Source: Boswellia sacra
Lineage: Eukaryota > Streptophyta > Magnoliopsida > Sapindales > Burseraceae
DNA length: 64,000 bases
Assembly: GCA_013180625.2 (NCBI GenBank)
Contig: SNVD02010487.1
Location: forward strand, 310,001 to 374,000
Direction: 5' to 3'
Positions 10,012-63,888 of the stretch are shown piece by piece; the stretch's first letter is position 1; each line of letters starts with the position of its first letter. Both the position numbers and the translations under genes were made by a program. The notes beneath the pieces were generated by a model. It ran no database searches. It saw only the letters and a list, made by a program, of their open reading frames with translations, and had not been told where the DNA came from.

Positions 10012-10024
10012 GATCACTACAAGA

Positions 10025-16396: not shown

Positions 16397-16539
16397 GCCA
16401 CAATTTTTCGTGAATTTTTCATATTGTTGTTTCTCTCTTAAGTTTTTTTATCACTATTTTTTTCTTTCTTCTTTCTTTTTTCCTTATTGTTTATCATGTT
16501 ATTATTGTTATTTAGTCATTTTTGATTGTGTATCTTTTA

Positions 16540-16750: not shown

Positions 16751-16928
16751 TCTGTATCGAGTAACCCCCACCGAAATTATGTCCCTATGTGTCAAATTTG
16801 AGAGTTTTACGTGTGTATATATCCATTTTGCATATTTTCAAATGTCATTTTATAACCTGTCTTGAACTTGAATAGCATAATACCTAACATGCATCATTGT
16901 CTTACACAAGGTTAGAACACTTGTAGAA

Positions 16929-17579: not shown

Positions 17580-19420
17580 TCTCTATCTACTGGTTTGCTT
17601 CATTTTTGTTTGTTTTTTTTTATTGTGTTTATTTGAGATTTTTCATGTCATTTCTTTTGAGATTTTTCAGGTTATTTCTTTCACCCCAGGTAATATTTTC
17701 TAATCTTGGCTTTTAAAGTGGTGGCTTAAAAAGTTTAAGTCCTCTTGAAATGCATTCTAGATCTCTTTAATCCATAATGGCTAAATAAGGAGGCTAAATT
17801 TTAAACGTTTTAGACCCATTCTAACTGACTTGTTTTTGTTTGCTGACTTGTTGAACTTTGTTATTTTATAAGTAAGTTTAGTTTTATGTAATTTAGAGTT
17901 ATTATGTGTTTTGTCTTTATTAGTTTCGATTCAAAAAGAGAAATTTGTGGAAAAATACTTGAGAATGGCAGAATATGGGGTTTCTTGAACCCTTGAAACG
18001 CATTCTCTTAAAATAAATATGTAGTTTGTTTATTTCATGTTGTTTGAAGTGTCTTGTTTCTTGTTTTGTTCTTTCATAATAAAGGTATATAGGCTAGAAA
18101 CCTTAAGTCTGCAGGCTACTGGTCCTAAGGATTGTTGAAATATACAATTTTGACTCAGGTGTAATAGCACCACGTACCTCTTTTCTTGCATTTTGTGGGT
18201 CGATGATAACACAATGATTGAATTAAGAATAACTCTTGGAAAATGATAAATGATGCATGGATCTGTGTGCTTGAAATGTATATTGGCTTTTGCTTTACTT
18301 TTGATTCCTTGCACAACATTGAGTACCGAGCCATTATCACTGAGTTATTTGTTTACTTAGAGAAAGTTTATATAATTTAAGTGTTTCTTCAGATTTCAAT
18401 GAATTCTAGAACTTGTTTGATGGTCACTCGAGGCGAAATCCTAGACTGTGCAACATTAGGGAAATGATTTAGGCCATCTTTGGACCGTTTGAGCCTTAAT
18501 AGCCAACCTTGACTGGCATTGATCCCTAGTTACCCCTTTGAGCCTCTATAAGCCTTTTTCTTTGTTAACTCACTAAAAGATTTCCTCACCTTAATTGAAT
18601 TTTTTTTTCCAAACAGTTTATCCCTTACCTATGAGCAAGTAGATCATTCGCGATTACATTTTGAGCTATGTTCTGGTTTTAGGAAGTTAGAGGAGGTTGG
18701 GTTGTGTCATGAGCAATGCAAGTGAGTTTTATTGTGTTTGTAAAAAGAAAAGAAAGAAAAAAAAGCAATCTGTACTTATCTTCTACGTACTTAAACATTG
18801 AGGACAATGTGTTGTTTAAGTGTGGGGGAGGGGAAGTGTAGTAAAAAAAACACAAACAAAAAAAATAAAAAAAAGAGAAAAAAAGAAAAAGAGATCTATA
18901 CCCTTGAGTGTTCTTAAAAAGAATGAAATAACAAAGTCCTACTTGATCCTTGGTGTTGTGCATGTCTACATTAGTGGAGAGTGACTTGAAAAGTAGACCT
19001 ATGGAGTTCATTTATACACACATATTCACTATTAAATATGATTCATTTTTATGCATAAACTCATCTGGGTTACAAATGATTAGGTGAAAATGGCTCTACA
19101 CACACACACTTGAGGAATTGAAGTGAAACGAAACTAATCTTTGAGATGAAATTCTTGATCAAGTGCATTATTTTGAAGTTTTCCTTAGGTTATAATTAAG
19201 TACAATCTTTGAGGCCTATTTGAAAGTTGAAGCATTTGTGTGTTTTCCTTTTTTTCTCGAGTTTTGTTTTCCTTTGTTTCTCGAGTGTTGTTTTCCTTTT
19301 GCAAAAACTGGATAGTCATCATCTTTATTATCAAAGATTCAACTCTCCATAACTAGTTTCTCTTCTATCCCTATTTTCATTTATGTTTAAGAACATGTTT
19401 ATATTGTGTTCCTCTTGGAA
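17580..19420 (+). mobile_element. 3' non-coding region of an Athila-like retroelement, fragment
   Basis: It has landmarks also found after the LOG gene of the complete element: CTTGAAACGCATTCT-type motifs (17735 and 17985), ACATTGAGGACAATG (about 18795) followed by a G-rich GTGTGGGGGAGGGG stretch, and a long A/G-rich tract (18841-18900). These are typical of the region upstream of the 3' LTR in Athila-type elements. No LTR was recognised, so the segment looks truncated. Its exact edges are unresolved. Confidence 0.55.
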
Positions 19421-19435
19421 AAAATGCTTCTAGAG

Positions 19436-19571
19436 TATGGGTGGATGATGTTAAACAACCTTCAGCATCATTGTGGAGAACAAGTGCTGATATGGAAACA
19501 ATAGAAGATGCTAGAGGAAGTTCAGTTGCTTGGCCAACTGAAGCAATCGTTATGATAGATGACTGCTGATC
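19436..19571 (+). pseudogene. C-terminal exon of a CACTA Transposase_24-like gene
   Basis: After an AG acceptor-like site, the frame reads VWVDDVKQPSASLWRTSA and then DARGSSVAWP before a stop. This resembles the conserved C-terminal pattern of plant CACTA second-gene proteins. Its orientation is opposite to the remnant at 10950-14150, which suggests two different CACTA elements are mixed here. Confidence 0.45.
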
Positions 19572-20029
19572 TTGGTAAGTTTTCTATCCCCAGTTGTACT
19601 TCATTCTTTATATGTTAGTTGTATATATAAGTGTCTAGAGACTGTTTATGAAAGCAAGGTTCCCAAGTTTTAAAATAAAATTCAATCATAATTTTGTTTA
19701 TAGTAAAATATAATCCTAGATTTCTTATAATAATTTTGTCCTTTTCTCCAAACTTATTATTCTAAGAATGCCTATTAAGGTATTATTTCTAATGAATTTT
19801 CAAATGTTCTATGCAGTTGATGATAAGAAGTGGATGAAGGTTTATTGCCATAGAGTACCTTTTGGATATAGCCAATGCAATGTACATATGACATAGGCCT
19901 CATGGGAGTTAAAACAAAGAAGCTATCAAATTTTTTGGAACTCTAGCTTTTTGACTCGGATACAAGTTATTACGTTAAGCTCTTTGTTTAGATATCACTC
20001 TTTGGGAAAGATGGACTTTGATATGGAAA

Positions 20030-20799
20030 CAAAGTTTATTTGAATGTTGATTACGCACTTTCAATACTAGATTTATATGTGATGACTTCTACTTGAGCAA
20101 TTCATGATATATATGAGTACGTGAATGTGCTATTATGATTTATAAATATTTAAGAATTATTATGTACATATTGGTAAATAACATAAAATTTATAACTTTT
20201 AAGAAATGATACAATATTATCATTGAAATGTCCAATTGTATTAAATCACAAATTTTACAATAACGAAGAATGCTATGAAATAAATTGAAAAAATTATATT
20301 ATAACATTTTTTTAGTGTTATAAGATATATTTTATATATTATGAAGTCATGGATATGGTAGCAATTATAACATTCATATGCAAGTTATGAATTTTATAGC
20401 ATTCATGAATGTCATGTAAACATTGAAAATTGAAAATAAATTATAGCATTATGAAAACGCTAAGAATTTTATAACACTCATGAATGTTATGTAAACATTG
20501 GAAATTAAAAATAAATGATAGCATTATGAAAATGCTATAATTTTATAGCATTAATGAATGTTATGTAAACATTGAATATTCAAAATAGATTATAGCATTT
20601 TGAGAAAGCTATAAATACAACTTATAGATAACATTTTTCAAGTGTTGTTATAAGTATATGAAATGCTATTGTTTTATAGCATTTTTTATGGATGCTATAG
20701 AGAAAGCATAGCATGGGCAGTTATAACATTCAGAAAATGCTATGAAAACCGTACAACAGCATTCATGGCATGTTATGAAATCCCATTTTTGTTGTAGTG
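20030..20799. repeat. Right end and subterminal repeats of a second CACTA-like element
   Basis: Repeats built on ATAGCATTCATGAATGTTATG and ATAGCATTATGAAAATGCTATA occur four or more times. They are followed by TTTTTGTTGTAGTG ending at 20799, a CACTA-type terminus. No matching CACTACAACAAAA left end was found, so this element is truncated or its left end has decayed. Confidence 0.5.
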
Positions 20800-20804
20800 T
20801 AATT

Positions 20805-21447
20805 TTCCGCTACGATCCCATTTGGTCGCTATATATATATATCATTCTGCAACCATTTAAACGTGGTAGCTAAAGCTCTTGGGGGTTCCTTACCATTTTA
20901 GCGACCAAAACTTTGGTCACAAAATGAAATTTTCTACTACAATTCGATATGGTCACTGTATGTGCCATTCTATGACCATTCATTATGGTAGCCAAATCAC
21001 TTAGGAAAATCGATTTCCTTAACCTTTTAGCAACGAAAATATTGGTCGCGGAATGATATTTTCTGCCACCATTTCTTTTGGTCGCTATAGATGACATGAC
21101 ATCTAGCTACCACTTCTCTGGTGCCTAAATATGATTTTGGGACAATATCTCTTAACCTTTTCAGCGACCACAATTGGTCGCAAAAAGCTTCTTTCAGCTA
21201 CGAAACATTCAATGGTCGCTAAAAGATAATTTTCGACCACTTGATTTTCTACGACTAACGTTGTTTTCGTTGCTGGATAAGGATATGGCGACGATATATT
21301 GATTGCTGAAAAAAATTTTTACTTCGTCAGCTTTGGCCACCACCTTCAGCTACGAACATATACTTTCATCACAAAATCAAACATATTGCTACCAATTTCC
21401 ATCTGTCGCCGAAAATTTGGTCGCTAAAGGGTATTTTTCTTGTAGTG
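20805..21447. repeat. CACTA right subterminal repeats and terminus
   Basis: Multiple TTTTGGTCGCTA / TAGCGACCAAA motifs run up to the terminal inverted repeat ending TTCTTGTAGTG at 21447. This mirrors the left end at 10015-10735. Confidence 0.75.
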
Positions 21448-23998: not shown

Positions 23999-24006
23999 CA
24001 CCACTC

Positions 24007-25215
24007 TGTCACGTCTAAAATCACTTATTTAGACACTTTAAGGGTAATTAATTAAGAAAAATAATAAACATACATCATCAATAACTTACTTTCTTCTTCT
24101 GTTTTTTTTATAACACATAAATTCATTACAACTTATGGCTATTTGTTCAAAATAAATTTTATATACACTAATGACTAAATTCAATACATAAATTGCTAGT
24201 CAAATAACAAAATCTCCCATTATAAGCTAGGAGAAATAAAACCGTCCCAAAAAATCATGGCATGCGTGCGGACTCCAGACTCCCTGGAAAAGCTCTAGGA
24301 CATCACTAGTATGAACATCCTTCTGTGTACCTGTAGAGAAAGAGGGTGAGCGTAAAGCCCAATAGGAATATTCTAACATTATACTAAATCACCCAAATTC
24401 AAAAATTACTCAATTACATAATTTCACATCCAATAATAATAAATCAACAACTATGTTTATTTGCACATCAAGTTTATAATCGTGTTCCCTTTGGATCTGT
24501 ATACAAAACGACCCATCCAAGGTCTAACACAAAATGTTTATCATATTCGTGTTCCCCTTGGATCCATATACAAAAGGGCCCATTCAAGGTCCAACACATG
24601 ATGTGGATAGTACTTCTGTTCCCCTTGGATCCGTATACGTAACGGCCCATCCAAGGTCCAACACTAAAAATTTTATATCAGTATTCTCCTTGGATCCGTA
24701 TACATAACGGCCCATCCAAGGTCCAATGAATACATTTACAACCTATCAATATCATTATTATGATAAATCTCAAGAAAATACAATTTTTATACAAAATCCA
24801 AGACTTTTTTGGAAGTGTACAGTAAATTTGGAGTGGTTTTGTAATTTCACTCGACACTCGACACTGTACACCTCGACATTCGACACACGACACTTGACAT
24901 GCACGTCGAGTCACGCACGCAACGTGTGACACTATTCGCTCGACACATCATGTTCGACCCTCGACACTTCATGTCGAGTCACCCTCAACACTCGACACGT
25001 TAACGACTCGACCCTCGACACGTCACGTTCTAACCTCGATACTTCATGTCAAGTCACCCTCGATACTCGACACATTAACAACTCGACCCTCGACATTTCA
25101 TGTCGAGTCACCCTCGACACTCAACACGTTAACAACTCGACCCTCGACACTTCATGTCAAGTCACCCTCGACACTCGACACGTCACGTTCAACGTTTTTT
25201 ACTAGACACTCGACA
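24007..25215 (-). repeat. 5' LTR of the minus-strand chromovirus (short relative to its partner)
   Basis: On the plus strand it begins TGTCACGTCT and ends CTCGACA, directly followed by TSD gtgac. It shares with 5870-6951 the four TTGGATCCGTATAC units (24485-24720) and the TCGAC-rich repeats, but has extra copies of a roughly 50-60-bp CACTCGACACGTTAAC unit (24960-25190). It lacks the 788 bp that extends the other LTR to 7739, including that LTR's TATA-like box. Confidence 0.7.
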
Positions 25216-37811: not shown

Positions 37812-38495
37812 ATGATGACTAGAAGCAAGAAAAACCAAACTGAAGACCCTGACACATCCGACACCTCAGTCCAAAAACCTGAAATACTAGAAACACTCGA
37901 GCTAATGATAAAAGCCTTAGAAAATAGGACAAACATTAGGATAAATGCATTGGAAAAGAAAGTGACAGAAACATTAACAATTGTAAAAGCCTTACAAGCT
38001 TCCTTTCTTAAAATACAAGGCTGTAATTTGGAGTTATCCACCAAACATAGGAATCAAGAGATCTTTGGTGCAACTCCTAAGAACCATGAGGATGAGTGTG
38101 ATGATTCTAGTGGAGTTGATGAAGTAAGCGAGATTGATCTTCTATATTGGCATGAATCTAGAGGTGATATTGAAAGCAAGGGCAAGATGAATCCTAATGA
38201 TATTGTGGAATCTATATGTGAAGAATCTCACGAAATCATTCAAGAAATTGATTTCATAGGTTGTGATTCATATTTGGGTTCTTCTACTTCTATTATTGGG
38301 TCAACGGTCAAGTCTTCCATGGGGATTATTGTTTCTCTACCAATATTGAAGGCCGCTGAAGCATCAATAATTTTTCTATTATGTGTGCTTCTAATATTAG
38401 ATCGCTATGAAGTGAAGATTTGGATTGATGACTTTCCAATGATCGTACAAGGCAAGACGTGGCGTTTCCTTGTGTATTGGCAATTTTCTCCTTGA
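37812..38495 (+). CDS. ORF of the small non-autonomous LTR element, unknown function
   Basis: A 227-residue open frame starting MMTRSKKNQTEDPDTSDT. A likely coiled coil lies at residues 25-70 (ETLELMIKALEN..., NALEKKVTETLTIV), followed by an acidic DDECDDSSGVDE segment and a conserved EESHEIIQEIDFIGCDSYLG segment. The second copy (minus strand, 62597-62081) preserves the same layout, including the acidic and IGCDSYLGSST parts, so the frame is a family trait. Its position right after the primer site suggests a gag-like or packaging role, but no known domain is recognised. The start is chosen as the first ATG of the open frame. Confidence 0.6.
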   Translation: MMTRSKKNQTEDPDTSDTSVQKPEILETLELMIKALENRTNIRINALEKKVTETLTIVKALQASFLKIQGCNLELSTKHRNQEIFGATPKNHEDECDDSSGVDEVSEIDLLYWHESRGDIESKGKMNPNDIVESICEESHEIIQEIDFIGCDSYLGSSTSIIGSTVKSSMGIIVSLPILKAAEASIIFLLCVLLILDRYEVKIWIDDFPMIVQGKTWRFLVYWQFSP

Positions 38496-38535
38496 CAACT
38501 CGCCAGGAGTCGAGTTCTTTTAAGAGGGAGAGAAT

Positions 38536-38984
38536 TGATGTATGACGTATTAGATTATAAATTATGAATTTTAATTTTGATTTTAGGGATTTTAATAAAT
38601 TAGGGATTTTGACTATTATTAGGGATTTTGACTTCCTGAATTGGGAGTAATCCTAATTGGAGTTATTTTCCTAATTAATAGTTTACTATTTTATTTAGAA
38701 TTTAATTTTGGTATTTTCTAGTTAAACTAAGATTATGATTTTATTTCCTAATGGGATTTTTTTTTCCTAGTAGAACTAGGCTTTAAGGTCCTATAAATAG
38801 GAACATTTAGTTATGTTATTTTTAGATTTGGTTGTTATTGTTTTTTTAATCTTTTAGTAAAAAGATTATTTCTCCCTCAATTTTTACTATACTTCTTCCC
38901 CAAATTTCTTATATTATTTCTCTCATTTCCTCTGTCTACATCTCCCTCCCTTTCTATTAACTTGAGGAACCCCGTTCCTCATCA
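38536..38984 (+). repeat. 3' LTR of the small non-autonomous element
   Basis: Partner of 36963-37410. It is preceded by the purine tract at 38522-38534 and followed by TSD ggttt. Confidence 0.9.
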
Positions 38985-49618: not shown

Positions 49619-50165
49619 ACATGTAGACAGAGGAAAGGGGAGAAATAATAGAAGAAATTTGAGGAAGAAGTAGAGTGAAATTGAGGGAGAAAATAATATT
49701 TTTACTAACAAATTAAAAACTAATATTCAACAACTTAAGAAATAAAATAACTAGAGACACTTATTTATCTTACCAACAATCATAACTTGACTAGGAAATA
49801 GTATCTATGAGGAAATAGAATATAATTTCAACTAAATAAGAAAATATCAAAATTAAATCTTAAATAAAATAGTAAACTATTAAAATAACTCAAATTAGGA
49901 TTTCTCCAAATTTAGAAAGTCAAAATCCCTAATAATAGTCAAAATCCCTAATTTATTAAAATCCCTAAACTATCATTGAAAACTCTAATTTATTCCTAAT
50001 ATGTCATACATCAATTATCCTTCGCATGTAAGAACTCGACTCCTGGCGAATCGTCAAGGAGGAAGTTGCCAATACACCAGAAAATGCCACATTTTGTCTT
50101 GCACAATCATTGGAAAGTAGTCAATCCAATCTTTGCTTCATGAAGATAAATTACTAATGCTTCAG

Positions 50166-51593
50166 TGATAAACGTATGAAAGTACACTCTTAAGCATAAA
50201 TAATTAATGCTAATTGGACAGTATTATAAAGCTTTTATGATATTTTAGCATAATTATTTTGCTTATGCCTCTTTTACATTTGTTTCATTTCTTTTGCATT
50301 TTCTTTAGTTTTTATCTTGAAATAAAGTATTGTCCTTAAATTGTGATTAATGGAAATCATTTTTTCAGGTTTAATAAAATGGACACAACACTCAATCTAT
50401 AGATCAAAATGGAGAGATTATTGAACCTGGAGCAATATGTCTCAATTTTACACAAAGTTGAAGAACAATCAAAAGCCCAAATCCAACATTTGATGGGCCG
50501 AAATTGAGACACAACAAAACCAAATTGTAGTTGTTTCTCAGCCCGACCCATGTCCAGTATTTGGGATATATCTCAAAGAATACTTGTCAAAATTGCATGA
50601 ATCTGGTGGCCCTGGAAAGTTGAGACAAAATTCTACAACTTTCATGTTTTCCACAAAGCTCAATTCGGTCCATTTGGTGGTCAAAAATCAGCTGCAAGTT
50701 GGTGGAATGTTTAGTGGCCGACAATGTGGAAAAATTGGTGGAGGTTTGGTGTAATAGTTCCATTTCATCACCTATTTAAGGACAACTTGAGGAATTGAAT
50801 GGGAGGAGAGAAAAAAATCATTTGAGTTCACATTTTATCATTGTATATTACAATTCTCTCTTGTATTTTCTTTTTAGAAATGATAAGAATGAATTGTAAG
50901 TTAGGCTAGAACTCTTGGTAAGGCTAGAGATGAACTTGTATGTGTAGTTTATCTATTTCTCCACTTTTATTCTACCTCAAGGGCTATAAAGATTGTATGT
51001 TTGTTTATGTGTTAAACTCTTTCTCATCTTGTGATTTCTTTTTAATCCAGAAATTATAATTCTCAATTTCATATAAATTCAGTCATGCTTTCTTTATGTG
51101 ATTCATGTTGAATTATAATTGTTACTGGTAGTTTCGTTTTATGAGTTAGTCCTTTACTACAATATTGTCATATGATATATTGTCGCTCTTGGATAACTTG
51201 TAAGGATGAATGTTGTTGGTAAATATTACTTGTAAAGAGTTTATGCATGTCAAATACATGTGTTTATCATTTATGTTATACTATAAATATTTTTCGATTG
51301 ATTGTTTGGGATGTGAAACTTTCAATTGAGTTATAATTATTAAATCAAAGTGGGGATTAGATTTACAAAACATATAAGTGATTCTCGATGCCTTACTTCT
51401 TAATTACCATCGATTGTTTCCAATTATTAAACACTGAATTTTCTTTAGAACTAATCACTTCAAAGTTAAATTTTACATTTTTATTATCTTTTTAATATTT
51501 TTGTTTTACGAACCTCTTTTATTGAAGGCCTCCTTGTGGATTCGACACCTCAACGTATACTACAATAACCGTGGTATATTTTGGGCATAACCG
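50166..51593 (+). repeat. 5' LTR of the Athila-like element
   Basis: Starts TGATAAACG and ends AACCG (AACCA in the partner). It is identical in length to the 3' LTR. The mid-LTR contains the transcript start region; no strong TATA assignment is made. Confidence 0.95.
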
Positions 51594-51598
51594 AAAAT

Positions 51599-51616
51599 TG
51601 GCGCCGTTGCCGGGGA
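51599..51616 (+). promoter_or_regulatory. Primer-binding site for tRNA-Asp
   Basis: TGGCGCCGTTGCCGGGGA, five bases after the LTR, is complementary over 18 bases to the 3' end of plant tRNA-Asp(GUC). Athila-lineage elements typically use this primer. Confidence 0.85.
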
Positions 51617-51667
51617 GGTAAAATGGACGAAAGACGGTTTGTATTTTTTATTTCCTTTTCTTTTTTT

Positions 51668-52025
51668 TGGCCTAACTTGGAATAATTTGCCTAATTTTCC
51701 TAACTTTGACTAATTTGCCTAATTTTCCTAACTTTGACTAATTTGCCTAATTTTCCTAACTTTGACAAATTTAACTAATTTTCCTAACTTTGACTAATTT
51801 GACTAATTTTCCTAACTTTGACTAATTTGCCTAATTTTTCTAACTTTGACGAACCTTATTCCTTTTACTTTTCAAAGGTCGGCTTTGCCACCTTGTTTGT
51901 TTTATTATTATTATTATTATTTTACTTGTTAAAGGTCGGCTTTGCCGCCTTTACTTGTTATTTGTTTTAATTTTTTTATTCTATATATACTTATCGAAGG
52001 TTGGCTTTGCCACCTTGTTTGTTTT
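51668..52025 (+). repeat. Leader repeats of the Athila-like element
   Basis: About six 28-bp units of TTTGCCTAATTTTCCTAACTTTGACTAA type (51680-51850) are followed by three copies of an AAGGTYGGCTTTGCCRCCTT block (about 51877, 51930 and 51995). The element's untranslated leader runs to the gag start at 52175. Confidence 0.8.
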
Positions 52026-52174
52026 ATTATTATTGTTGTTATTATTCTCTCTAACTTTTGTTATCTTATTGCTTTTTGACTTTATTTGAGAACTTTCTTG
52101 TGTAAAAAAAAAAAAATAAAAAAATAAAAACAAAAACAAAAAAAACAAAAAGAGAGACAAATTGTGAGTGATGT

Positions 52175-53518
52175 ATGAAGCAATCTAGAGACAAACGAGG
52201 AAGATTTATAAAAAAATCCGAACTAGAACCACAACAAGATTTTGCAATCGAAGAAAAATCAATTCTTGGTTCATCTTCATCTTCTAATTCTGATACAATG
52301 AGCCAACATGAGGACAACCCCGTTAAAATTCTAAAAGATTACTTGCATCCTACCCGCACAACCACACCATCATGTATCATATTTCCACCTAATACACCCA
52401 AATTGGACTTTCACCCTGGGATGATACATCTTTTACTAACTTTTCATGGTTTAGATAGTGAAAACCCGTATGTGCATGTTAGAGAATTTGAAGAAGTAGT
52501 GGGCACCTTTCATAGTCAGGCCAATGCCATAGATTCTATCAGGTTAAAATTTTTCCCTTTTTCTCTAAAAGACAGGGCAAAGAGTTGGCTATACTCTTTA
52601 AGGCTGAGATCCATAGGAACTTGGACAGAAATGACCCAAGTGTTTTTTAACAAATATTTTCCACAACATAAGACTAACGGCCTGAAAAGACAAATTTCCT
52701 CTTTCTCCCAAAAAGATAGTGAAACCTTGTACCAAACTTGGGAGAGATTTAAAGAGTTGTTAAACATGTGTCCTCATCATGGGTATGAAAATTGGCGCTT
52801 GGTTAGTTACTTCTATGAGGGACTAACAATTAGGGAGCGCCAATTTGTTGAGATGATGTGCAATGGAGAGTTTCTTCAAAAAGACCCTGAGGAAGCCTTA
52901 GAATTCCTCAAAGACTTAGCTAAAAAAGCCCACACATGGACTGGACCTAGTGCTATAGATAGCACAAATAGGTCACGATCTAGTGGAATTTACCATCTTA
53001 GGGAAGAGGACAACCTTAAAGCCCAATTAGAAGTCTTAACCAGGGAATTGGAAGTCTTGAAAACCAAAGATAGGAAGGTCACCCATACAGTTGCTAAAGT
53101 TGAATCACAAGATCCATGTTTTATTTGTGGAGGGATGGAACACTTAGCTCAGGATTGTCCAACTTACAGTGAGATAAGAGGGGTGTACGAGGAATAATGT
53201 AACGCCTTAGGGATGTACAAAAAGCCTTATTCACCCTATTCTAAAACCTATAACCCTAGCTGGAGAAACCACCCAAACTTTAGTTGGAAATCTAACCCCC
53301 AAAACAACAACCAATGGAAACAGGAACAACAACCACCCAAGTCTTATCAAGCACCTCAATACAATGCACCACAAGTTAGGAATTCCTTAGAGGACACCTT
53401 ACAAGCATTTATGGAGGCCCAAAATAAGACGAACCAAAAATTTGAAACAGTTCTTACACAAGTGGTGGAAGAGAACAAGGAGATCAAAAGTCAAATCACT
53501 AAGCTAACTATGCTTTGA
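52175..53518 (+). pseudogene. Gag of the Athila-like element, interrupted by one stop
   Basis: Starts MKQSRDKRGRFIKKSELEPQ. The retrotransposon gag core spans about residues 110-230 (RLKFFPFSLKDRAKSWLYSL, FFNKYFPQHKTN, ERFKELLNMCPHHGYENW). A zinc knuckle of CX2CX4HX4C type lies at residues 315-328 (CFICGGMEHLAQDC). An in-frame TAA at 53195-53197 interrupts it. The same frame continues with a basic and Gln/Asn-rich tail to the stop at 53516-53518. Gag would build the particle that packages element RNA. The start is the first ATG of the open frame after the leader. Confidence 0.85.
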
Positions 53519-54241
53519 CCATACAAGAGTGAGGTAAGTTGCCATCTCAAACTCAATCTAATCCAAAAGGGCAACACATGGCACAAGTCTCTACTTCTGA
53601 CACACAAAATCTCAAAGAGGTAAATGCCATCACTACTCGAAGTGGTAAGATCTTAAATGAGCCTACATTGCCAATCAACACTACAAGATGTTCTCCCACA
53701 AAAGGAGGACATTTTTGAGAAAGAACTTGAAAAGAAATTTTCGATTCCAGTGCCTTTTCCCCAAGCTCTCAGATCTAATGGGAAAAACTCTAAAGTTTAA
53801 GGTGAGATTCTAGAACACTTAAAACAAGTTAAGATTAATCTTCCCTTGTTGCATGTAATCAAACAGGTTCCGGCTTACGCCAAAGTTATCAAGGATCTAT
53901 GCACCATCAAAAGAAAGCACCATGTCAAGAAGACTGCATTCTTGACGGAACAGGTAAGTGCAGTCATTGAACAGAAAACCCCACCCAAGTACAAAGATCT
54001 AGGGTGTCCTACAATTTCCTGCCAGATTGGGACACATGAAATCAGTCAAGCATTGTTAGAATTGGGAGCAAGTGTCAATCTCATGCCCTATTCGGTTTAC
54101 TTACAATTAGGACTTGGAGAGATCAAACTCACATCCGTAGTTCTACAATTGGCCGACCGATCAGTCAAGAAACCACGGGGAATAGTGGAAGATGTTTTAT
54201 TATAGATTGATAAATTTTATTACCCTGTTGATTTTCTTGTT
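53519..54241 (+). pseudogene. Aspartic protease region of the Athila-like element, broken
   Basis: The linker includes NAITTRSGK near 53625, a typical Athila signature. The protease segment is 53846-54205: KTAFLTEQVSAVIEQK, PTISCQIGTHEISQALLELG and ASVNLMPYSVYLQLGLGE. The catalytic Asp of the usual DLGAS motif is Glu here (ELGAS). Frameshifts lie between 53519 and 53846, and a TAG lies at 54203-54205. A downstream ILGRPFLATANAFINCRNG segment follows in the next open frame. Confidence 0.8.
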
Positions 54242-56092
54242 TTGGATACTCAGTCTGTGGTTAATATAGAGTCCAAAACTCCTCTTATTTTAGGGAGACC
54301 TTTTCTTGCTACTGCTAATGCTTTTATTAATTGCAGGAACGGTCTCATGAAATTATCATTTGGTAATATGACTCTTGAGGTGAATATTTTCCATATTGGA
54401 AAGCAACCACGAGAGGAGGACGATTGCTACCATTCATATATGATAGACACACTTATCTCAGAGGAGGCTTATAGAAAACAGGATTTTGACTCTTTAGACT
54501 ACCTTCTTGATTCTGAATTTGAAGATTTATTTTATCCTGATGATACAACTAATGTGTTTGGTGTTTTTGACTCACAGGATAAAAGGACTCGATTTTGGCA
54601 ACCACGCTTTGAAGAATTGCCTCGTGGAAGAGAGAAGCCAAAACCCTCTAACTTAGAGGCTCCAAAAGTTGAACTTTCTCCATTGCCCAAAGGTTTGAAG
54701 CACGTTTTCTTGGGAGCAGGTGATACCTTTCCTGTTATTATTTCTTCAGAACTTAGTGTTGAACAAGATGAAAAATTGATAAACTTGTTAAAAGAGCATA
54801 AGTCTGCACTAGGATGGACTATAGCTGATATTAAAGGTATTTCTCCATTAATATGCTCCCATAGAATCCATCTAGAGGAAGGTACCCAACCTCGTAGAGA
54901 CCCCCAAAGAAGACTTAATCCAACAATGAAAGAAGTGGTAAAGAAAGAAGTCTTAAAACTATTAGATGCAGGTATAATCTATCCAATATCTGATAGTCAA
55001 TGGGTAAGTCCAACACAGGTAGTGCCTAAGAAATCTGGAGTAACTGTGGTTCAAAATGATAAAGGAGTGTCTGTTCCAACTAGAGTAGTAACCGGATGGC
55101 GGATGTGCATTGATTATAGGAAATTAAATACAGCCACCCGAAAAGACTACTTTCCATTGCCTTTTATTGACCAAATTTTGGAACGTGTAGCTGGTCATCC
55201 CTTTTATTGCTTTCTCGATGGGTACTCAGGATATTACCAGATAGAGATAGCTCTAGAGGATCAGGATAAGACTACCTTCACATGCCCTTTTGGTACTTAT
55301 GCTTTTCATAGGATGCCATTTGGATTATGTAATGCACCAGCTACTTTTCAATGTTGCATGCTTAGTATTTTCTCAGACATTGTTGAAAAATGCATGGAGG
55401 TTTTTATGGATGATTTGACTGTTTTTGGTAACTCTTTTGATTCATGTCTACTTAACTTAAAATCTGTTTTGAGTAGGTGTGAAGAAAAAGGACTTGTGCT
55501 TAATTGGGAAAAATGTCATTTCATGGTGTCTTCTGGGATTGTTTTGGGACACATTGTTTCAGAAAGAGGAATGGAGGTTGACAAGGCTAAAATCGAGTTG
55601 ATCTCTAAATTACCTACACCCAAAACGATAAAAGATGTCCGATCTTTTCTAGGGCATGCTGGTTTTTATAGGAGGTTTATACAAAATTTTTCTTCTATAT
55701 CTAGACCATTGTGTAACCTCTTATTGAAAGATGCTGAATTTGTATGGACTCAGGCTTGTGAGGACGCATTTCAGACATTAATTGCCAAACTCACTACTGC
55801 CCCTATTATGCAGTCACCTGATTGGAGCCTTCCATTTGAGATTATGTGTGATGCTAGTAACTATGCTATAGGAGCAGTCCTTTTTCAAAGAAGGGAGGGC
55901 AAACCCTTTGTTGTTTACTATGCTAGTAGAACCTTAAATGATGCTCAAATGAATTATTCTACTACTGAAAAGGAACTATTAGCTGTTGTTTTTGCCTTGG
56001 ACAAATTTCATTCTTATTTAATTGGTTCACCTATTACTGTGTTTACTGACCATGCAGCTCTGAAGTACCTTTTTTCCAAAAAGGATTGCTAA
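54242..56092 (+). pseudogene. Reverse transcriptase and RNase H of the Athila-like element
   Basis: An open segment of 616 codons. It contains ILGRPFLATANAF (end of protease), reverse transcriptase motifs WRMCIDYRKLNTATRKDYFP, CFLDGYSGYYQIEIALED, RMPFGLCNAPATFQ and VFMDDLTVFG (FMDD catalytic motif intact), the connection SFLGHAGFYRRFIQNFS, and RNase H motifs EIMCDASNYAIGAVL, YSTTEKELLAVVFALDKF and [16 protein letters not shown] single-base frameshift just before the stop at 56090-56092 separates it from integrase. In a live element it would be part of one gag-pol polyprotein copying RNA into cDNA. Confidence 0.9.
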
Positions 56093-57575
56093 GGCCCATC
56101 TAATTAAATGGATTCTTGTTTTACAGGAATTTGATCTAACCATTAAGGACAAGAAGGGCGTCGAAAATGCTGTAGCAGATCATTTGTCCCGTCTTGAGTT
56201 CCATGATTCCACTAATGTCTAACCCATTCAAGATGATTTCCCTGATGAACATCTTTTCACTATAAGCCAAGTACCATGGTATGCACATATTGTAAATTAC
56301 TTGGTTTGCGGGGAAGTTCCATCTAACTGGAGTGTACAAGATAAGCGTAAGTTCTTGGTTGAGGTGCGTAATTTTTATTGGGATGATCCTTATCTTTTCA
56401 AATATTGCGCTGACCAAATTATGCGACGTTGCATTCCTGAGAGTGAAATTGCTAGTGTCTTAAACTTTTGCCATGGCACTGCTTGTGGTGGTCATTTCTC
56501 AATAAAAAAGACTGCTGTAAAAATTTTACAGTGTGGACTCTATTGGCCCACTTTGTTTAAAGATACTAACAATTTTTGTCGTTCATGTGAAAGATGTCAA
56601 AAGTTGGGGGCTTTATCTCGCCGTCATATGATGCCTCTTAGCCCTATTCTTGTTATTGAGATATTTGACTGTTGGGGTATTGACTTTATGGGACCTTTTC
56701 CTCCATCTTTTGGTTATCTTTATATTCTTCTAGTTGTTGATTATGTGTCCAAATGGGTGGAGGCAATGGCTTGTCGTACTAATGATAACACAACCGTGGT
56801 AAAATTCTTAAAAGAAAACGTGTTATCTAGGTATGGTACGCCACGTGTCATTATCAGTGACCAAGGGACACATTTTTGTAACCGTTCTTTTGAAGCTTTG
56901 ATGCGCAGGTATGGTGTTCTTCATAAGATTTCCACCGCATATCATCCACAGACAAATGGGCAAGCTGAACTTGCAAATAGGGAGGTGAAGCAGATTCTAG
57001 AAAAGACTGTTAACCCGAATCGCAAAGACTGGTCTTTACACCTTTCTGATGCATTATGGGCTTATTGCACTGCGTACAAAACTATTCTAGGGATGTCTCC
57101 ATATCGCCTTGTCTATGGGAAAGCTTGTCATTTACCTGTTGAGCTAGAACATAAAGCTTATTGGGCTGTCAAAGCCCTTAACTTTGATTTGAGTGTTGCA
57201 GGTCTTCAAAGAAAGTTACAATTGTCTGAAATAGAAGAATTGCGGAATGATGCCTATGACAACTCCAAGATTTACAAGGCTAAGATGAAAGCGGCTCACG
57301 ACAAACAAATCTTGAGGAAAAACTTTGAGCTAAATCAACGAGTTTATCTTTATGATTCTCGATTGCATTTACACCCTGGAAAGTTGAGATCTCGATGGAC
57401 TGGACCATTTGTCGTAAAGCACGTTTTTCCCAATGGAGCGGTGGAGATTGAGGACCCCACTGATGGGCGAATTTTCAAAGTTAATGGGCAACGGTTGAAA
57501 AATTATGTGGAAAGGGAAAGTCAGTTTATGTGTCTCGAGGAGATCTCTCTTGAGCCTCCTGTCTATCCTAATTAA
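56093..57575 (+). pseudogene. Integrase of the Athila-like element
   Basis: The open frame resumes after the frameshift; a TAA at 56220-56222 precedes the long open part (56301-57575). It has zinc-binding residues in [11 protein letters not shown] and CRSCERC. The catalytic core has D (WGIDFMGPF), D ([10 protein letters not shown]) and E ([16 protein letters not shown]), all present. The C-terminal Athila-type segment includes [15 protein letters not shown] and [17 protein letters not shown], and the reading ends at 57575. The core domain is well preserved, but the frameshift and the upstream stop prevent a normal polyprotein. Confidence 0.9.
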
Positions 57576-57960
57576 TCAGGTTCTATCTGTCTCATCTATC
57601 TGTACCATATCTTGACTTTTGTACCATATCTTGATTTTATTTTTGTTTTTATTATTTGGTTGTCCTTGCTTTTATTATTTTTCTACCCCATATCTTGACT
57701 TTGTCTTTGTTTCTATCATCTATTTGTACCATATCTTGACTTTATTTTTGCTTTCTTTATCTCATTGTCTTGCTTTTATTATATGTTTGTCCTATAATTT
57801 TTACTTTATTTTCTGTTTTTGCTTTTATTTTCTTTTGCGTGTTTTATTTTACTTCCCGGTTAAGTGGCGGATACGGTACTCCGTGACTAATTAAGTCGGT
57901 TTTTCAGTTCCCTAAAAACTGTAACCCAAACAAAAATCGTGCATTCTTTTACCTTTCAAA
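57576..57960 (+). other. Spacer between pol and the accessory cassette
   Basis: T-rich, with four or five copies of TACCATATCTTGACTTT-like motifs (57602-57745). It ends in GTCGGTTTTTCAG at about 57896-57908, which looks like a pyrimidine tract plus AG splice acceptor 52 bp before the next ATG. A spliced subgenomic message could explain how downstream genes are expressed. This is inference only. Confidence 0.45.
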
Positions 57961-58509
57961 ATGGATACGATTCTTTCAAACCTTCGTAGACATTTTCCTT
58001 TTCTTCCTCCAAATGCATTGCTCAAAATTTACAAAGCACGGTTTGCAAGGTTAAAATTCCTAATGCTCATGGGTTTACCTGTTGATATACGATGGTTAAT
58101 TGAAGCCAAAGTTCGATTATCTGGTGAATGTTCAAAAGCCTTTGTTTCTTTCATGCCTGGTTTGGGTAAAAGCTCTTACGCAAAAAAGCGAAGAGCAAAT
58201 AAATTACAAGTTTGTCACAAATGTGCACGATGGACCTGTAACAAGCGATGTCGCTCTTTAGGATATGTGTCTGTCAATCGAGAAGATAAGATTCAGTTCA
58301 TTAAGGATGGACTGAGTAAGGAGTCTCTAGATAATATCTTGTTGACTCTTGAGACGCATCCTTGTGGACTTGTGCATCGAGAGATTTTAAGATTATGCAC
58401 ACAATTTCAGGAAGAGCAAGAACGCTATAGTCTCGGGAATCTGACTCAAAACGACCTTGTTTGCCAATTTATAAGAAAATTGGATGGGAAGCATATCCCC
58501 AACTCATAG
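57961..58509 (+). CDS. Carlavirus-type cysteine-rich nucleic-acid-binding protein (NABP-like), intact
   Basis: A 182-residue open frame. Residues 1-60 are helical and end with PVDIRWLIEAKVRL; a basic patch GKSSYAKKRR lies at 69-78; a zinc finger C85-x2-C88-x4-C93-x3-C97 follows; then LGYVSVNREDKIQFIKDGLS and a C-terminal helical region. The order of basic patch, Cys finger and a Y/I-S-x-N-x-(x)-(x)-x-x-FI-x-x-G block is that of the carlavirus NABP family, which binds nucleic acid and can suppress RNA silencing. It has an N-terminal and C-terminal extension relative to that family's usual 90-130 residues. It lies 385 bp after pol and 242 bp before LOG on the same strand. Function in silencing defence is inferred, not shown. 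Confidence 0.7.
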   Translation: MDTILSNLRRHFPFLPPNALLKIYKARFARLKFLMLMGLPVDIRWLIEAKVRLSGECSKAFVSFMPGLGKSSYAKKRRANKLQVCHKCARWTCNKRCRSLGYVSVNREDKIQFIKDGLSKESLDNILLTLETHPCGLVHREILRLCTQFQEEQERYSLGNLTQNDLVCQFIRKLDGKHIPNS

Positions 58510-58751
58510 AAGGTGTTTCAGCCGTTACTGGACGTAAAACCAAAGGAAGATGTGAGCCACAATCACAACTACCTGTACATATGCACGTTTGCTATTATTT
58601 TTGAGTTTCTATTTTATTTTTATTTTCAACGTTTGTCAGACAAACAGTTGAGCTACCTATATAGATGTCATTATTGTACCACCTTTTTGCATTCTATAAA
58701 TACATCTCATGTTCTTCATTTGCATATACATAGTTAGTGAGTTGTATCAAA
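58510..58751 (+). other. Spacer between NABP and LOG in the complete element
   Basis: AT-rich, without the tandem units present in copy A. No promoter can be named with confidence. Confidence 0.4.
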
Positions 58752-59396
58752 ATGGAGGGAACCTCAGCTCGTCGATTCCGAAATATTTGTGTATTTTGTG
58801 GATCTCAGCCTGGTAATGATATAGCTTTTTTAGAAGCAGCTCATAATCTTGGTAAGGTTCTAGCTGAGAGAAAACTTTATTTAATTTATGGGGGAGGTAA
58901 CCGTGGGTTAATGGGGTGTGTGTCAACAACTGCATACTCAAGAGGAAGTCAAGTTTTAGGCAATATTCCTAAAGCTTTAGTTAACGTTGCTGGGAAAATA
59001 GTTGGAGAGGAATTACAGGTCTCATCCATGCATGAACGCATAGCTCGTATGATTGTAAATGCAGATGCCTTTATTGCTTTACCAGGAGGTTTTGGAACAA
59101 TGGAAGAAATCTTTCAAGTTGTCTCTTGGGCCCAACTCAATATCCACCAGAAACCCATAGGTTTGTTGAATGTCAATAATTTCTTTGATTGTTTATTGTG
59201 TTTTGTTAATCAAGCTGTGGAACAAAGGTTTATCTCACAATCAGCACAACGGATCCTTGTCTCTGCCTCAACTGCTGATGAACTAATTGATAAATTGCAA
59301 GCTTTTGTTTATGAACCAGACCCTGAAGCATCTCAAATTAATTGGTCAGTGGAAATGAGCAATAAGGGAAAATTGGATCTGACACTTCGTTTGTAA
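58752..59396 (+). CDS. LOG-like cytokinin riboside 5'-monophosphate phosphoribohydrolase, copy B (retrotransposon-borne)
   Basis: A 214-residue open frame of the LONELY GUY family, near the usual plant length. It converts cytokinin nucleotides to free bases in the cytosol or nucleus if active. Landmarks: RFRNICVFCGS (8-18), the Rossmann motif YGGGNRGLMG (46-55), MHER (93-96, with the conserved Arg), the catalytic signature PGGFGTMEE (111-119), WAQLNIHQKPIGLLNV, and a C-terminus LDLTLRL shared with copy A. An in-frame ATG at 58737 adds five residues; I chose 58752 because it aligns with the start of copy A. There are no introns, unlike host LOG genes, which points to capture through RNA. All motifs I can judge are intact. 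Confidence 0.85.
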   Translation: MEGTSARRFRNICVFCGSQPGNDIAFLEAAHNLGKVLAERKLYLIYGGGNRGLMGCVSTTAYSRGSQVLGNIPKALVNVAGKIVGEELQVSSMHERIARMIVNADAFIALPGGFGTMEEIFQVVSWAQLNIHQKPIGLLNVNNFFDCLLCFVNQAVEQRFISQSAQRILVSASTADELIDKLQAFVYEPDPEASQINWSVEMSNKGKLDLTLRL

Positions 59397-60647
59397 CTTT
59401 TCTTACTTTTGGCTTTGTTCACAATATTTTATTAAGTGTTTTTCAGGTTTGTTTCTCTTGAATAACTAAAGCTTCAGGTGATGTCTCCTATACTTTCTCT
59501 TTCTACATTTAAACATTGAGGGCAATGTTTCGTTCTGGTTGGGGGTAGATAGGAGGCATATGTTTTGCATTGCATTATCTCTTGGTCTGAGAATGGCAGT
59601 GTAAAGAGTTCATTATCTCTTGAGACGCATTCAGAATGGCAGAGTAGGGAGTATAGTTTTGACCTCTTGAAACGCATTCTAACTAGTTGATTTGTTTTTT
59701 ATTTTTGAATTATATTTCATGCACAGCTGCTTATTGCATGTTTTCTCGGTAATTCTTGTCTAAATGGGTTTGTTTTTCTATCTAGGTATGATTTCAAAAT
59801 TATTGGTTTGAGTGATCTTTTCTATTTAGGTTATCAAAGAATGATTTCTGAAATTATTTTGAGCACAATGTTAAGCCTTGTGGTAAGATGGATGATTCAA
59901 TGTATATAGCCAAGAGAATTCTCATGTTTAAGTTCACATTTTTTTTAATCTCACATATCTTTTGTGAGTGAGTGGAGAGGTTGAGAAAACAGCTTACGAA
60001 CTTTCATTGATCCTTTGAATTGATTAATCCTTGTTTAGAATGTCATTACTCGAATTGAGCTAAGGGACGATTCAAGGTGAAATTTCAATTCTTGTGAAAA
60101 AAAACATAAAAAAAAAGAAAAAAAAGAGAAGAAGTTAGTTCGATTCAATAATGTCTTCATTCACTTTTAGAATATAGAAGTTTTATGAAGCAGCCTTTTC
60201 TCATCAAGCTGTATTAATTCACTCAAGATAAATGAAGTCCTAAAGGTAGCATGTTGCAAGAATGATTTGATTCTAAACATTGGATTTTCCTATCTTTGGA
60301 TCAATGTTAGTTGTCTGTCTGTCCTTAAATGTGACCTTTCCTTGAGTGTTTATTCTATTTTCCAACTCCATGAGAGAAATCATAATCTTTTTAAACAGTC
60401 GTTGACCTGTGAGGATATGGAGTTGAGGCTTTTACATAGAGTAATTTTCAAGGCTATATGTGTTGCGGTTCGTGGTAAGAAGGTTTGGCTTGATTCACAT
60501 GTGCTCAGTTTTGGAAGTTATGATTGAAATAACCTTTATAGCAATTGTGATCTTGAACTGACTTTTTGTTTGAAATGCTGAAGTAGTTCTTCATGCTTCA
60601 TTTACGCTTGAATTGCTAGGGACTAGCAATAAGCTGGCTGGGGATTG
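59397..60647 (+). other. 3' non-coding region and polypurine tract of the Athila-like element
   Basis: Contains CTTGARACGCATTC motifs (59618 and 59665), ACATTGAGGGCAATG (about 59513) followed by GGTTGGGGGTAG, an A/G-rich tract (60098-60137), and a CTAGGGACTAGCAATAAGCTGGC block. The purine-rich GGGGA at 60640-60644 next to the LTR is the likely plus-strand primer site. The same landmarks follow LOG copy A. Confidence 0.65.
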
Positions 60648-62075
60648 TGATAAACGCATGAAAGTACACTCTTAAGCATAAATAATTAATGCTAATTGGA
60701 CAGTATTATAAAGCTTTTATGATATTTTAGCATAATTATTTTGCTTATGCCTCTTTTACATTTGTTTCATTTCTTTTGCATTTTCTTTAGTTTTTATCTT
60801 GAAATAAAGTATTGTCCTTAAATTGTGATTAATGGAAATCATTTTTTCAGGTTTAATAAAATGGACACAACTCTCAATCTATAGATCAAAATGGAGAGAT
60901 TATTGAACCTGGAGCAACATGTCTCAATTTTACACAAAGTTGAAGAACAATCAAAAGCCCAAATCCAACATTTGATGGGCCGAAATTGAGACACAACAAA
61001 ACCAAATTGTAGTTGTTTCTCAGCCCGACCCATGTCCAGTATTTGAGCCATATCTCAGAGAATACTTGTCCAAATTGCATGAATCTGGTGGCCCTGGAAA
61101 GCTGAGACAAAATGCTACAACTTCCATGTTTTCCACAAAGCCCAATTCGGTCTATTTGGTGGTCAAAAATCAGCTGCAAGTTGGTGGAATGTTTGGTGGC
61201 CGACAATGTGGAAAAATTGGTGGAGGTTTGGTGTAATAGTTCCATTTCATCACCTATTTAAGGACAACTTGAGGAATTGAATGGGAGGAGAGAAAAAAAT
61301 CATTTGCGTTCACATTTTATCATTGTATATTACAATTCTCTCTTGTATTTTCTTTTTAGAAATGATAAGAATGAATTGTAAGTTAGGCTAGAACTCTTGG
61401 TAAGGCTAGAGATGAACTTGTATGTGTAGTTTATCTATTTCTCCACTTTCATTCTACCTCAAGGGCTATAAAGATTGTATGTTTGTTTATGTGTTAAACT
61501 CTTTCTCATCTTGTGATTTCTTTTTAATCCAGAAATTATAATTCTCAATTTCATATAAATTCAGTTATGCTTTCTTTATGTGATTCATGTTGAATTATAA
61601 TTGTTACTGGTAGTTTCGTTTTATGAGTTAGTCATTTACTACAATATTGTCATATGATATATTGTCGCTCTTGGATAACTTGTAAGGATGAATGTTGTTG
61701 GTAAATATTGATTGTAAAGAGTTTATGCATATCAAATACATGTGTTTATCATTTATGTTATACTATACATATTTTCTGATTGATTGTTTGGGATGTGAAA
61801 CTTTCAATTGAGTTATAATTATTAAATCAAAGTGGGGATTAGATTTACAAAACATATAAGTGATTCTCGATGCCTTACTTCTTAATTACCATCGATTGTT
61901 TCCAATTATTAAACACTGAATTTTCTTTAGAACTAATCACTTCAAAGTTAAATTTTACATTTTTATTATCTTTTTAATATTTTTGTTTTACGAACCTCTT
62001 TTATTGAAGGCCTCCTTATGGATTCGACACCTCAACGTATACTACAATAACCGCGGTATATTTTGGGCGTAACCA
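60648..62075 (+). repeat. 3' LTR of the Athila-like element
   Basis: Starts TGATAAACG and ends GTAACCA, followed by TSD ttcag. It is 1428 bp, like the 5' LTR, with about 28 substitutions between them by eye. Confidence 0.95.
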
Positions 62076-62080
62076 TTCAG

Positions 62081-62757: not shown

Positions 62758-63369
62758 TAGGTTATACACTCCCCTCCATATTCTTTACCTTCCTTGGAGA
62801 GATGTTAGTATAGATTTCCTTTTAGGATTACCTAAACTGCTAGGAAACATGATTCTATTTTTGTTGTGGTTGATAGGTTTTCTAAAATGGCCCATTTTAT
62901 CCCTTGTTCCAAGACTAGTGATAGTCCACATATAGCTCAACTATTCTTTAAGGAGATTGTCCGTCTCCATGGACTGCCTGTGTCAATTATGTCGAATAGA
63001 GATGTTAAGTTTGTTAGCTACTTTTGGAAGACACTTTGGAAACTGTTTGATACATCTCTTAAGTTCTCTTCAGCTTATCATCCTCAAATCGATGGGCAAA
63101 CTAATGTGGTTAATCATAGCTTGGGGAACTTGCTTCGTTGTGTGGTAGGCGAGAAGTTAGGTAATTGGGATATAATGTTACCTATGGCTGAGTTTGCTTA
63201 TAGTAATGCTATTCATAGGTCAACTAGTAAGAGTCCATTCATGATTGTTTATGGTATTGCACCCCACCGACCCATTAAGCTTGTTCACTTACCCTCTCAC
63301 TACCCTTCTTCAAATTTTGCATCTGATTTTGCCACCTATATGTGTGATTTGCATGTTGAGGTTAGATAA
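62758..63369 (+). pseudogene. Integrase core of the plus-strand chromovirus, catalytic residues lost
   Basis: Resumes with YTPL, then KHDSIFVVVDRFSKMAHFIP, RLHGLPVSIMSNRDVKF and SSAYHPQIDGQTNVVNHSLG. The second catalytic Asp (usual SDRD) is Asn, and the catalytic Glu position (usual GQTE) is Asn. The zinc-binding domain between 49618 and here is mostly deleted. A stop lies at 63367. Confidence 0.8.
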
Positions 63370-63888
63370 ATGATTTCCTTGAGCAGTGATAAATATAGGT
63401 CTGCTGCTAATTTGTATTATAGAGAAAAGGTATTTAAGGAAGGTGATTATGTCGTGGTTCGCCTTGGTCCTTCTCGCTTTCCTAAACAAGCTAACAAGAA
63501 ATTGCAAGCTCGTGCCCATGGCCCATTTAAAGTTAATCATAGGCTTGGTTCTAATGCTTATTTACTTGATTTGTCTTCTGATTAGGGTATCAATCCAATT
63601 TTTAATGTTGCAAACTTGTATCATTACTAAAGACATTTCAAGCCTCCAGCTGTTTTTGACGTTTCTACAGGTTCTCCTACTGTTGTTGTACCTCGTTTGC
63701 CTCCGTTCAATCCTCCACCAAATGATAAGGTTGATTGTATTTTGGATGACCACTTTGTTACTTTTACTACTGGTGGTTTTCGTCATTTCCTTGTTTGTTG
63801 GAAAGGACGACCAACAGATGATGATACTTGGCTTTCTGAGGATGAGCTCCGTCGCATCAATTCCCATGCTTTAGATTTTTACTTATAG
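63370..63888 (+). pseudogene. Integrase C-terminus and chromodomain-like tail, plus-strand chromovirus
   Basis: KYRSAANLYYREKVFKEGDY, VVRLGPSRFP, and ARAHGPFKVNHRLGSNAYLL are the GPF/Y-type module. After a stop at 63583, the tail 63697-63888 ends in FLVCWKGRPTDDDTWLSEDE, a chromodomain-like motif (WKG, then W and E). It is the normal C-terminus of a chromovirus pol. Confidence 0.8.

Follow-up and report, generated by a model that had tools for sequence, protein, structure and literature searches.

Structure of the element and its two additional genes

In a 64,000-nucleotide stretch of the Boswellia sacra genome (assembly GCA_013180625.2, contig SNVD02010487.1, positions 310,001 to 374,000; hereafter "the window"), an Athila-type Ty3/gypsy retrotransposon, element A, carries two open genes between its integrase and its 3' long terminal repeat (LTR): one for a nucleic-acid-binding protein of viral type (NABP) and one for a relative of the cytokinin-activating enzyme LOG (Table 1). 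An earlier note on this DNA had given the coordinates of the element exactly to the base, and its claim of firm boundaries was borne out by the 1428-bp LTRs, the target site duplication (TSD) TTCAG, and the unique primer-binding site. The LTR pair aligned without gaps, with 28 differences (20 transitions) and a Jukes-Cantor distance of 0.0199. The primer-binding site, whose letters we take to be the complement of tRNA-Asp, was the sole match in the window when up to three mismatches were allowed, and none was obtained in 100 shuffles. Element A sits within an older repeat, an uninterrupted paralogue of which lies on the minus strand at 37903-38948; the joined flanks of the element gave one alignment with this paralogue that ran through the junction (1047 columns, 79%, 11 gap openings).

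Table 1. Positions of element A, copy B and their parts in the window. L001 is the contig DAIEQH010000041.1.
Feature	Position	Strand	Remarks
Athila-type Ty3/gypsy element A	50166-62075	+	complete in outline
TSD TTCAG	left 50161-50165, right 62076-62080		both borders of element A
5' LTR	50166-51593	+	1428 bp, by self-BLAST against the 3' LTR
Primer-binding site	51599-51616	+	18 nt, 5 nt past the LTR, tRNA-Asp type
gag open reading frame (ORF)	52175-53197	+	340 amino acids (aa); Pfam Retrotrans_gag, CCHC zinc knuckle
Protease ORF	53846-54205		presumed protease, from its position
Reverse transcriptase and RNase H ORF	54242-56092	+	616 aa, Pfam
Integrase ORF	56301-57575	+	424 aa; Pfam H2C2, rve
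Conserved non-coding leader 5' of NABP	57853-57910	+	similar block in L001
NABP gene	57961-58509	+	182 aa; basic stretch and four-Cys (C85 C88 C93 C97) putative zinc finger, flexivirus type
LOG-like gene	58752-59396	+	214 aa; PGGxGTxxE, Arg99 and Glu122 kept; Lys100 to Ile; tail KGKLDLTLRL
Short 3' motif AAACATTGAGGGCAATG..GGTTGGGGG	59511-59546	+	similar motifs in L001 and after the copy B LOG
3' LTR	60648-62075	+	1428 bp, by self-BLAST against the 5' LTR
CACTA-type DNA transposon	10015-21447		11,433 bp, CACTACAAGAAAA ends, 3-bp TSD GAT; holds copy B
Copy B NABP-like gene	15860-16390	+	two in-frame stops
Copy B LOG-like ORF	16929-17579	+	open, 216 aa, 67% aa identity to copy A

The order gag, protease, reverse transcriptase, RNase H and integrase is that of Athila, with the protease placed by position; a Pfam scan of the protease ORF gave no match. 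An extra coding region between the integrase and the 3' LTR is present, as expected of Athila, and the putative Athila membership of element A rests on this region, the primer site and the layout. According to the accessible portion of PMC1142308, Athila, Calypso and Diaspora have, like element A, a tRNA-Asp primer site 5 bp past the LTR and a Ty3/gypsy gag-pol, and Athila and Calypso have extra coding space 3' of the integrase. Athila and Calypso carry an env-like gene and Diaspora carries none, whereas element A has NABP and LOG (PMC1142308).

Other features were noted in and beside element A. An array of ~28-bp repeats (CCTAACTTTGACTAATTTGCCTAATTTT) lies between the primer site and gag at 51643-51894. 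Within gag, the Rfam family snoR71 (RF00097) matched in antisense at 52679-52785 on the minus strand with 59.6 bits (cut-off 40), and one guess is that retrotransposon gag may be the source of this family or have carried it along. Just 3' of element A, at 62857-63582, is an integrase fragment of another gypsy element (25% identity).

The NABP gene

The NABP of element A exceeded the cut-offs of the Pfam families Carla_C4 (28.4 bits; cut-off 20.9) and Viral_NABP (27.9 bits; cut-off 23), which agrees with its description in the earlier note as an open, carlavirus-type NABP gene following the integrase. When it was scanned together with 40 relatives, Viral_NABP matched 36 and Carla_C4 matched 35 of the 41 rows at E≤0.01, and any other Pfam family matched at most 2. 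All four cysteines were kept in 99 of 118 aligned rows, and a basic motif precedes the zinc-finger region. The protein database contained 434 relatives at E≤0.01, and the hosts named among the best 120 of these were Rhamnella, Populus, Xanthoceras and Acer. Relatives were also sought in viral contigs, by protein and by DNA pattern, and none was found there.

A structure model of the NABP (mean pLDDT 65.9) was compared by Foldseek and gave 34 viral matches, each of them weak, of which 21 came from viruses that we take to be flexiviruses. Nineteen of these 21, likewise weak one by one, are named nucleic-acid-binding, RNA-binding or silencing-suppressor proteins, and a fragment of p12 of Chrysanthemum virus B (CVB), not significant alone, is among the 21. 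The matched flexivirus proteins are 62-170 aa long, part of them being fragments, compared with 182 aa for the element NABP. Flexivirus cysteine-rich proteins such as CVB p12 resemble the NABP in having a basic motif, a four-cysteine region and Carla_C4/Viral_NABP domains, as described in the available parts of two reports (PMC7588395, PMC12172455); the element protein differs from them in its length, in a conserved C-terminal region and in being carried by a retrotransposon. The same excerpts present carlavirus p12 as both an activator and a suppressor (PMC7588395) and state that CVB p12 causes hyperplasia and leaf malformation (PMC12172455). Silencing suppression is on record for carlavirus relatives only, and the NABP of element A is a candidate suppressor by homology.

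The conserved leader in front of the NABP gene contains TTTTTCAG at 57900-57907, one of its 8 occurrences in the window. This sequence resembles a splice acceptor and is a possible 3' splice site; with the NABP ATG as the next start, it would suit a spliced message. An RNA structure in the leader was considered and discarded, as no special fold was obtained (z -0.70).

The LOG-like gene and its altered residues

Translated from 58737, the second ORF matched Pfam Lysine_decarbox with 127 bits, and from its first ATG (58752) it matched AtLOG3 (PDB 2a33) with an E value of 5.7e-58, which upholds the earlier identification of an open LOG gene after the integrase. PGGxGTxxE and the catalytic Arg99 and Glu122 are present both in this LOG (copy A) and in that of a second copy in the window (copy B, described below), and in both copies the position of Lys100 is occupied by Ile. 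Position 100 follows the numbering of CgLOG and was located through the motif spacing on AtLOG3. In an alignment of 210 LOG rows, including canonical LOG7 of many angiosperms and three solved LOGs, this position was Lys in 89 rows, Met in 54, Ile in 43, Leu in 23 and Asn in 1; Arg99 was present in 202 and Glu122 in 206 of the rows. Because 120 of the 121 replacements of Lys100 are aliphatic, the replacement seems to have been selected, with an effect on either catalysis or substrate.

The replaced rows also differ in their C-termini: LxLxL was found within the last 25 residues of 104 of the 120 Ile/Met/Leu rows versus 2 of the 89 Lys rows, and 95 of these 104 also carry a run of basic residues. 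None of the 24 canonical LOG7 rows in the tree described below has the LxLxL tail. Six of the seven codons of LDLTLxL differ between copies A and B, five of them synonymously and the one at x with a replacement. LxLxL is given, in the literature extracts consulted, as one consensus of the EAR repression motif, and the tail of the LOG possibly binds TOPLESS.

In CgLOG, as far as the accessible text of PMC4979012 goes, the adenine site consists of Met96, Lys100 and Glu121, Lys100 also belongs to a proposed prenyl site common to AtLOG3, OsLOG and CpLOG, and the catalytic pair is proposed to be Arg99 with Glu122. Alanine at crucial residues nearly abolished the activity of CgLOG, except for S19A; the text does not name each mutant, and the assay used AMP as the substrate of a bacterial LOG, so it is not decisive for the element LOG (PMC4979012). 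With the canonical plant LOG7-type cytokinin riboside 5'-monophosphate phosphoribohydrolases, the element LOG has the family, PGGxGTxxE and the catalytic Arg/Glu in common, whereas the element LOGs form a separate clade, have Lys100 replaced in most members and end in a KKRKLDLTLRL-like tail instead of the canonical one. The earlier proposal that this LOG raises active cytokinin is supported by the retained motif, Arg99 and Glu122, but is made doubtful by the replaced Lys100 and the new basic/LxLxL tail.

An internal promoter for the LOG gene was also considered. TATAAATA occurs at 58695, but it is found 9 times in the window and not before the LOG of copy B, and it was set aside as a mere lead.

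A second pair on a DNA transposon and selection on both genes

A diverged second pair, copy B, is present in the window on a different chassis, a CACTA-type DNA transposon, with its LOG open and its NABP decayed. The earlier note, whose anatomy of element A stands, had overlooked this pair as well as the broken gag-pol and the replaced pocket lysine of the LOG. The CACTA element interrupts an older, minus-strand gypsy element in its reverse transcriptase, which aligned through the junction once the CACTA sequence was removed (29.5% over 264 aa). Short matches of 62-65% were seen between the ends of the CACTA element. A transposase gene was sought and not recognised: the longest other stop-to-stop frame is 110 aa, and a Pfam scan of four of the frames listed gave no match. 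The surroundings of copy B were searched for an Athila LTR, primer site or pol, and none turned up; two short pieces there resemble the 3' non-coding region of element A in reversed order (71% and 77%). Two histories would fit: uptake by the CACTA element of a 3' portion of an Athila element, or an insertion within the CACTA element that has since decayed.

The CACTA element and the gypsy pol fragments are flanked by direct repeats at 5869-6917 and 24006-25073 (85% identity), which could be LTRs belonging to the older gypsy element. Another sequence resembling a CACTA end, TTTCTTGTAGTG, occurs at 44493.

Codon comparison of copies A and B gave, for NABP, a nonsynonymous divergence (dN) of 0.22, a synonymous divergence (dS) of 1.20 and a dN/dS of 0.18 (bootstrap 0.09-0.32, 175 codons, leaving out the two stop codons of B), and for LOG a dN of 0.21, a dS of 1.39 and a dN/dS of 0.15 (bootstrap 0.07-0.24, 214 codons). 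When compared with the NABP of L001, the ratio was 0.18 (0.10-0.29) for copy A and 0.13 (0.07-0.25) for copy B. The integrase of element A compared with that of L001 gave an unusable ratio, with a dS of 5.3 and 160 of 300 bootstraps working. All usable upper bounds were below 0.33; NABP and LOG are under purifying selection between the copies in the window.

Occurrence in other species and origin of the pair

Two protein models of Rhamnella join parts of the same region. In one (P0099), the end of an integrase (69% over 111 aa) is fused to NABP, and in the other (P0096), NABP (65%) is fused to a LOG fragment with MHERI (50% over 110 aa), the NABP half of the latter not reaching E 0.01 in Pfam. 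Both models have a decayed look and could stem from faulty annotation, yet they show the adjacency. In Xanthoceras, a LOG (ACOSQ2_032186, P0252) and an NABP (ACOSQ2_032187, P0013) have consecutive locus tags and lie on equally long contigs, their adjacency being judged from the tags, not from strand or distance. The LOG had 7799 matches in the protein database, of which the best 120 were listed, with ordinary LOGs not separated from the rest. Pairing NABP and LOG matches on short contigs by equal size (e.g., 8723 or 4511 bases) was not used, because such equality could arise by chance. Host LOG families may be inflated by element-like proteins, some of which bear a host LOG annotation, as does P0197 (LOGL10 of Populus trichocarpa).

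A LOG tree was made from 76 hand-picked rows of the 210, after leaving out 134 that were mainly near-copies together with rows of odd length; it was built quickly, with SH-aLRT support and no bootstrap. The 40 element-like LOGs form one clade (SH-aLRT 95), which joins the Xanthoceras/Acer type in a group of 49 rows (SH-aLRT 81), and the 24 canonical LOG7 rows are separate from the element-like clade, as are AtLOG3/8. P0153, which is sister to the other 39 element-like LOGs, has both Lys and LxLxL, suggesting that the tail preceded the loss of Lys; P0301, within the clade, also has Lys, and P0310, of the Xanthoceras/Acer type, has Asn at position 100. A single capture of a plant LOG gene, followed by change, apparently gave rise to this LOG. 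One element-like LOG (P0217) comes from the annotation of Rehmannia glutinosa, a plant distant from the other named hosts, and stands on a long branch, which may reflect horizontal transfer or a wider range.

L001 is a 3330-bp contig filed in a metagenome-assembled genome of Candidatus Nomurabacteria; its content is plant retrotransposon DNA, and it is probably contamination in the reference genome set. Its integrase has 68% aa identity to that of element A and its NABP 75-77%, the latter passing the Viral_NABP cut-off and falling just below that of Carla_C4. No LOG was found in L001 at E 1e-3, although the contig stops 983 bases past the NABP and a LOG further on is possible. The NABP of L001 is followed by the flanking block of element A and then by AACATTGAGGACAATG..TTGGGGGG, which in element A follows the LOG. 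An integrase and NABP without LOG suggest that the LOG joined later than the NABP and that L001 resembles an element from before the gain of LOG, the alternative being a loss of LOG in L001.

Possible roles of the two genes

The several loci, the other species in which the pair or the integrase adjoins, and the purifying selection bear out the view of the earlier note that the pair is cargo of the element, and a role in the life of the element is likely because this cargo recurs and is under purifying selection. As observations that would count against its view, that note had named restriction of the pair to one locus, an assembly join and an ordinary host LOG copy. The pair is not restricted to one locus, as shown by copy B at 15860-17579 and by the neighbouring genes in other species. 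We regard the chance that an assembly join or an ordinary host gene copy lies beside the element as negligible: no support for it was found, and it is contradicted by the TSD, the LTR pair, the continuity of the flanks with the uninterrupted paralogue, the second pair in the window, the neighbouring genes elsewhere and the separate LOG clade. It is also very improbable that the two are passenger genes transduced by chance, with frames open merely because the insertion is young. The LTRs are only 2% apart, and neutral open frames could survive since insertion; however, dN/dS values of 0.15-0.18 at dS>1, the many relatives and the one deep clade need long-term selection.

We give about even chances to an Athila-type lineage with a two-protein effector module, composed of NABP and an altered LOG, which would favour the element's own expression. 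The accessory two-gene module sits between the integrase and the 3' LTR of the lineage. The NABP, as a homologue of flexivirus cysteine-rich nucleic-acid-binding proteins, may free the element from silencing or alter transcription programmes. The LOG, which retains the nucleotide loop and the catalytic pair, with the pocket lysine aliphatic in most relatives and a basic tail leading to LDLTLRL, would act beside the NABP in the nucleus, as an effector of growth or transcription whose substrate use has changed, and its EAR-like tail possibly recruits TOPLESS. Together they might open an expression window for the element in dividing cells, and both would probably be produced from spliced or internal transcripts. 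As judged from sequence, "silencing suppressor plus growth effector" is a plausible description of the pair.

Several observations weigh against this effector proposal. The gag-pol of element A is broken, with no single open frame, so this copy is probably not autonomous. The NABP structure models are of low confidence (mean pLDDT 58.8 and 65.9), and the viral Foldseek matches include none at E≤0.001, with query TM-scores of at most 0.24. The dN/dS ratios are rough because dS is high (0.9-1.7). The EAR-like and nuclear-localization-signal-like calls rest on short motifs, and "element-like" was assigned by sequence, location within an element being seen for few of the tree rows. The change at position 100 is not universal, as the Xanthoceras/Acer-type LOGs of the adjoining clade keep Lys and have no LxLxL, and two of the 40 element-like tree rows keep Lys. 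Moreover, as Lys100 is a prenyl-pocket residue, an aliphatic replacement could shift, not abolish, cytokinin use.

The last point leads to the reading closest to the earlier note, in which the LOG still activates cytokinin, so that free cytokinin and cell division increase, while the NABP blunts RNA silencing; we consider it possible, on the less likely side. It is favoured by the retained PGGxGTxxE, Arg99 and Glu122, by purifying selection between the copies and by the Xanthoceras/Acer-type members that retain the lysine. Lys100 is also part of the proposed prenyl pocket (PMC4979012), which might tolerate an aliphatic residue, and the hyperplasia and leaf malformation attributed to CVB p12 (PMC12172455) would fit, whereas the near loss of CgLOG activity by alanine at pocket residues (PMC4979012), although not decisive, does not. 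This reading also has to accommodate an aliphatic residue at position 100 in copies A and B and 118 further rows (120 of 210), and it leaves the conserved new tail unexplained. A cytokinin-releasing LOG is possible especially in the lineages that keep Lys. Less probable, and in our view unlikely, is that the NABP serves as an RNA chaperone or packaging factor and the LOG as a nucleotide-binding structural partner of the particle, with no host action. The NABP region is basic and four-Cys zinc-finger-like, lies where other elements have extra 3' ORFs and occurs without LOG in L001, all of which would suit such a function; against it, the element already encodes a gag with a CCHC knuckle, and the basic LxLxL tail would better fit nuclear partners.

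Relation to known elements and implications

Steinbauerova et al. in 2011 reportedly described two Athila-like elements with similarity to LOGL4. The accessible part of PMC9289625, citing Steinbauerova et al. 2011, records LOG (YgdH) for consensus gypsy elements from two Citrus species and from Populus trichocarpa, which places a LOG-type domain inside dicot gypsy LTR elements, as in element A; its text on these elements makes no mention of a viral-type NABP, a replaced lysine or an LxLxL tail. The earlier note knew of no described plant LTR element with this pair; the pair was indeed not found, but LOG in gypsy elements was already known (PMC9289625). No paper on a carlavirus-type NABP in a retrotransposon, on the NABP and LOG pairing or on the altered LOG was found in the literature searched, which is weak evidence, as coverage was thin for subscription journals. 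The extra ORFs of plant gypsy elements are mostly without known domains (PMC9289625), and orchid gypsy elements with an AlkB-type RNA demethylase provide another case of an extra enzyme gene; the orchid enzyme is a different one and is active in vitro, and no NABP/LOG pair is mentioned with it in the part of PMC9289625 concerned.

Both extra genes have named relatives with measured activities, so a virus-like action of a retrotransposon on silencing and growth is testable. The altered LOG clade is a natural experiment on the residues needed for cytokinin release. A more far-reaching version of the effector proposal, which we hold only tentatively and think less likely than not, is that the lineage, which seems to go back to the separation of several dicot orders unless it spread horizontally, has a nuclear module in which a flexivirus-type zinc-finger regulator or silencing suppressor is combined with a LOG turned to ligand or corepressor binding, whose EAR-like tail recruits or titrates TOPLESS. 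If true, such a nuclear effector module would parallel the pathogen effectors that, in the literature excerpts consulted, use TOPLESS.

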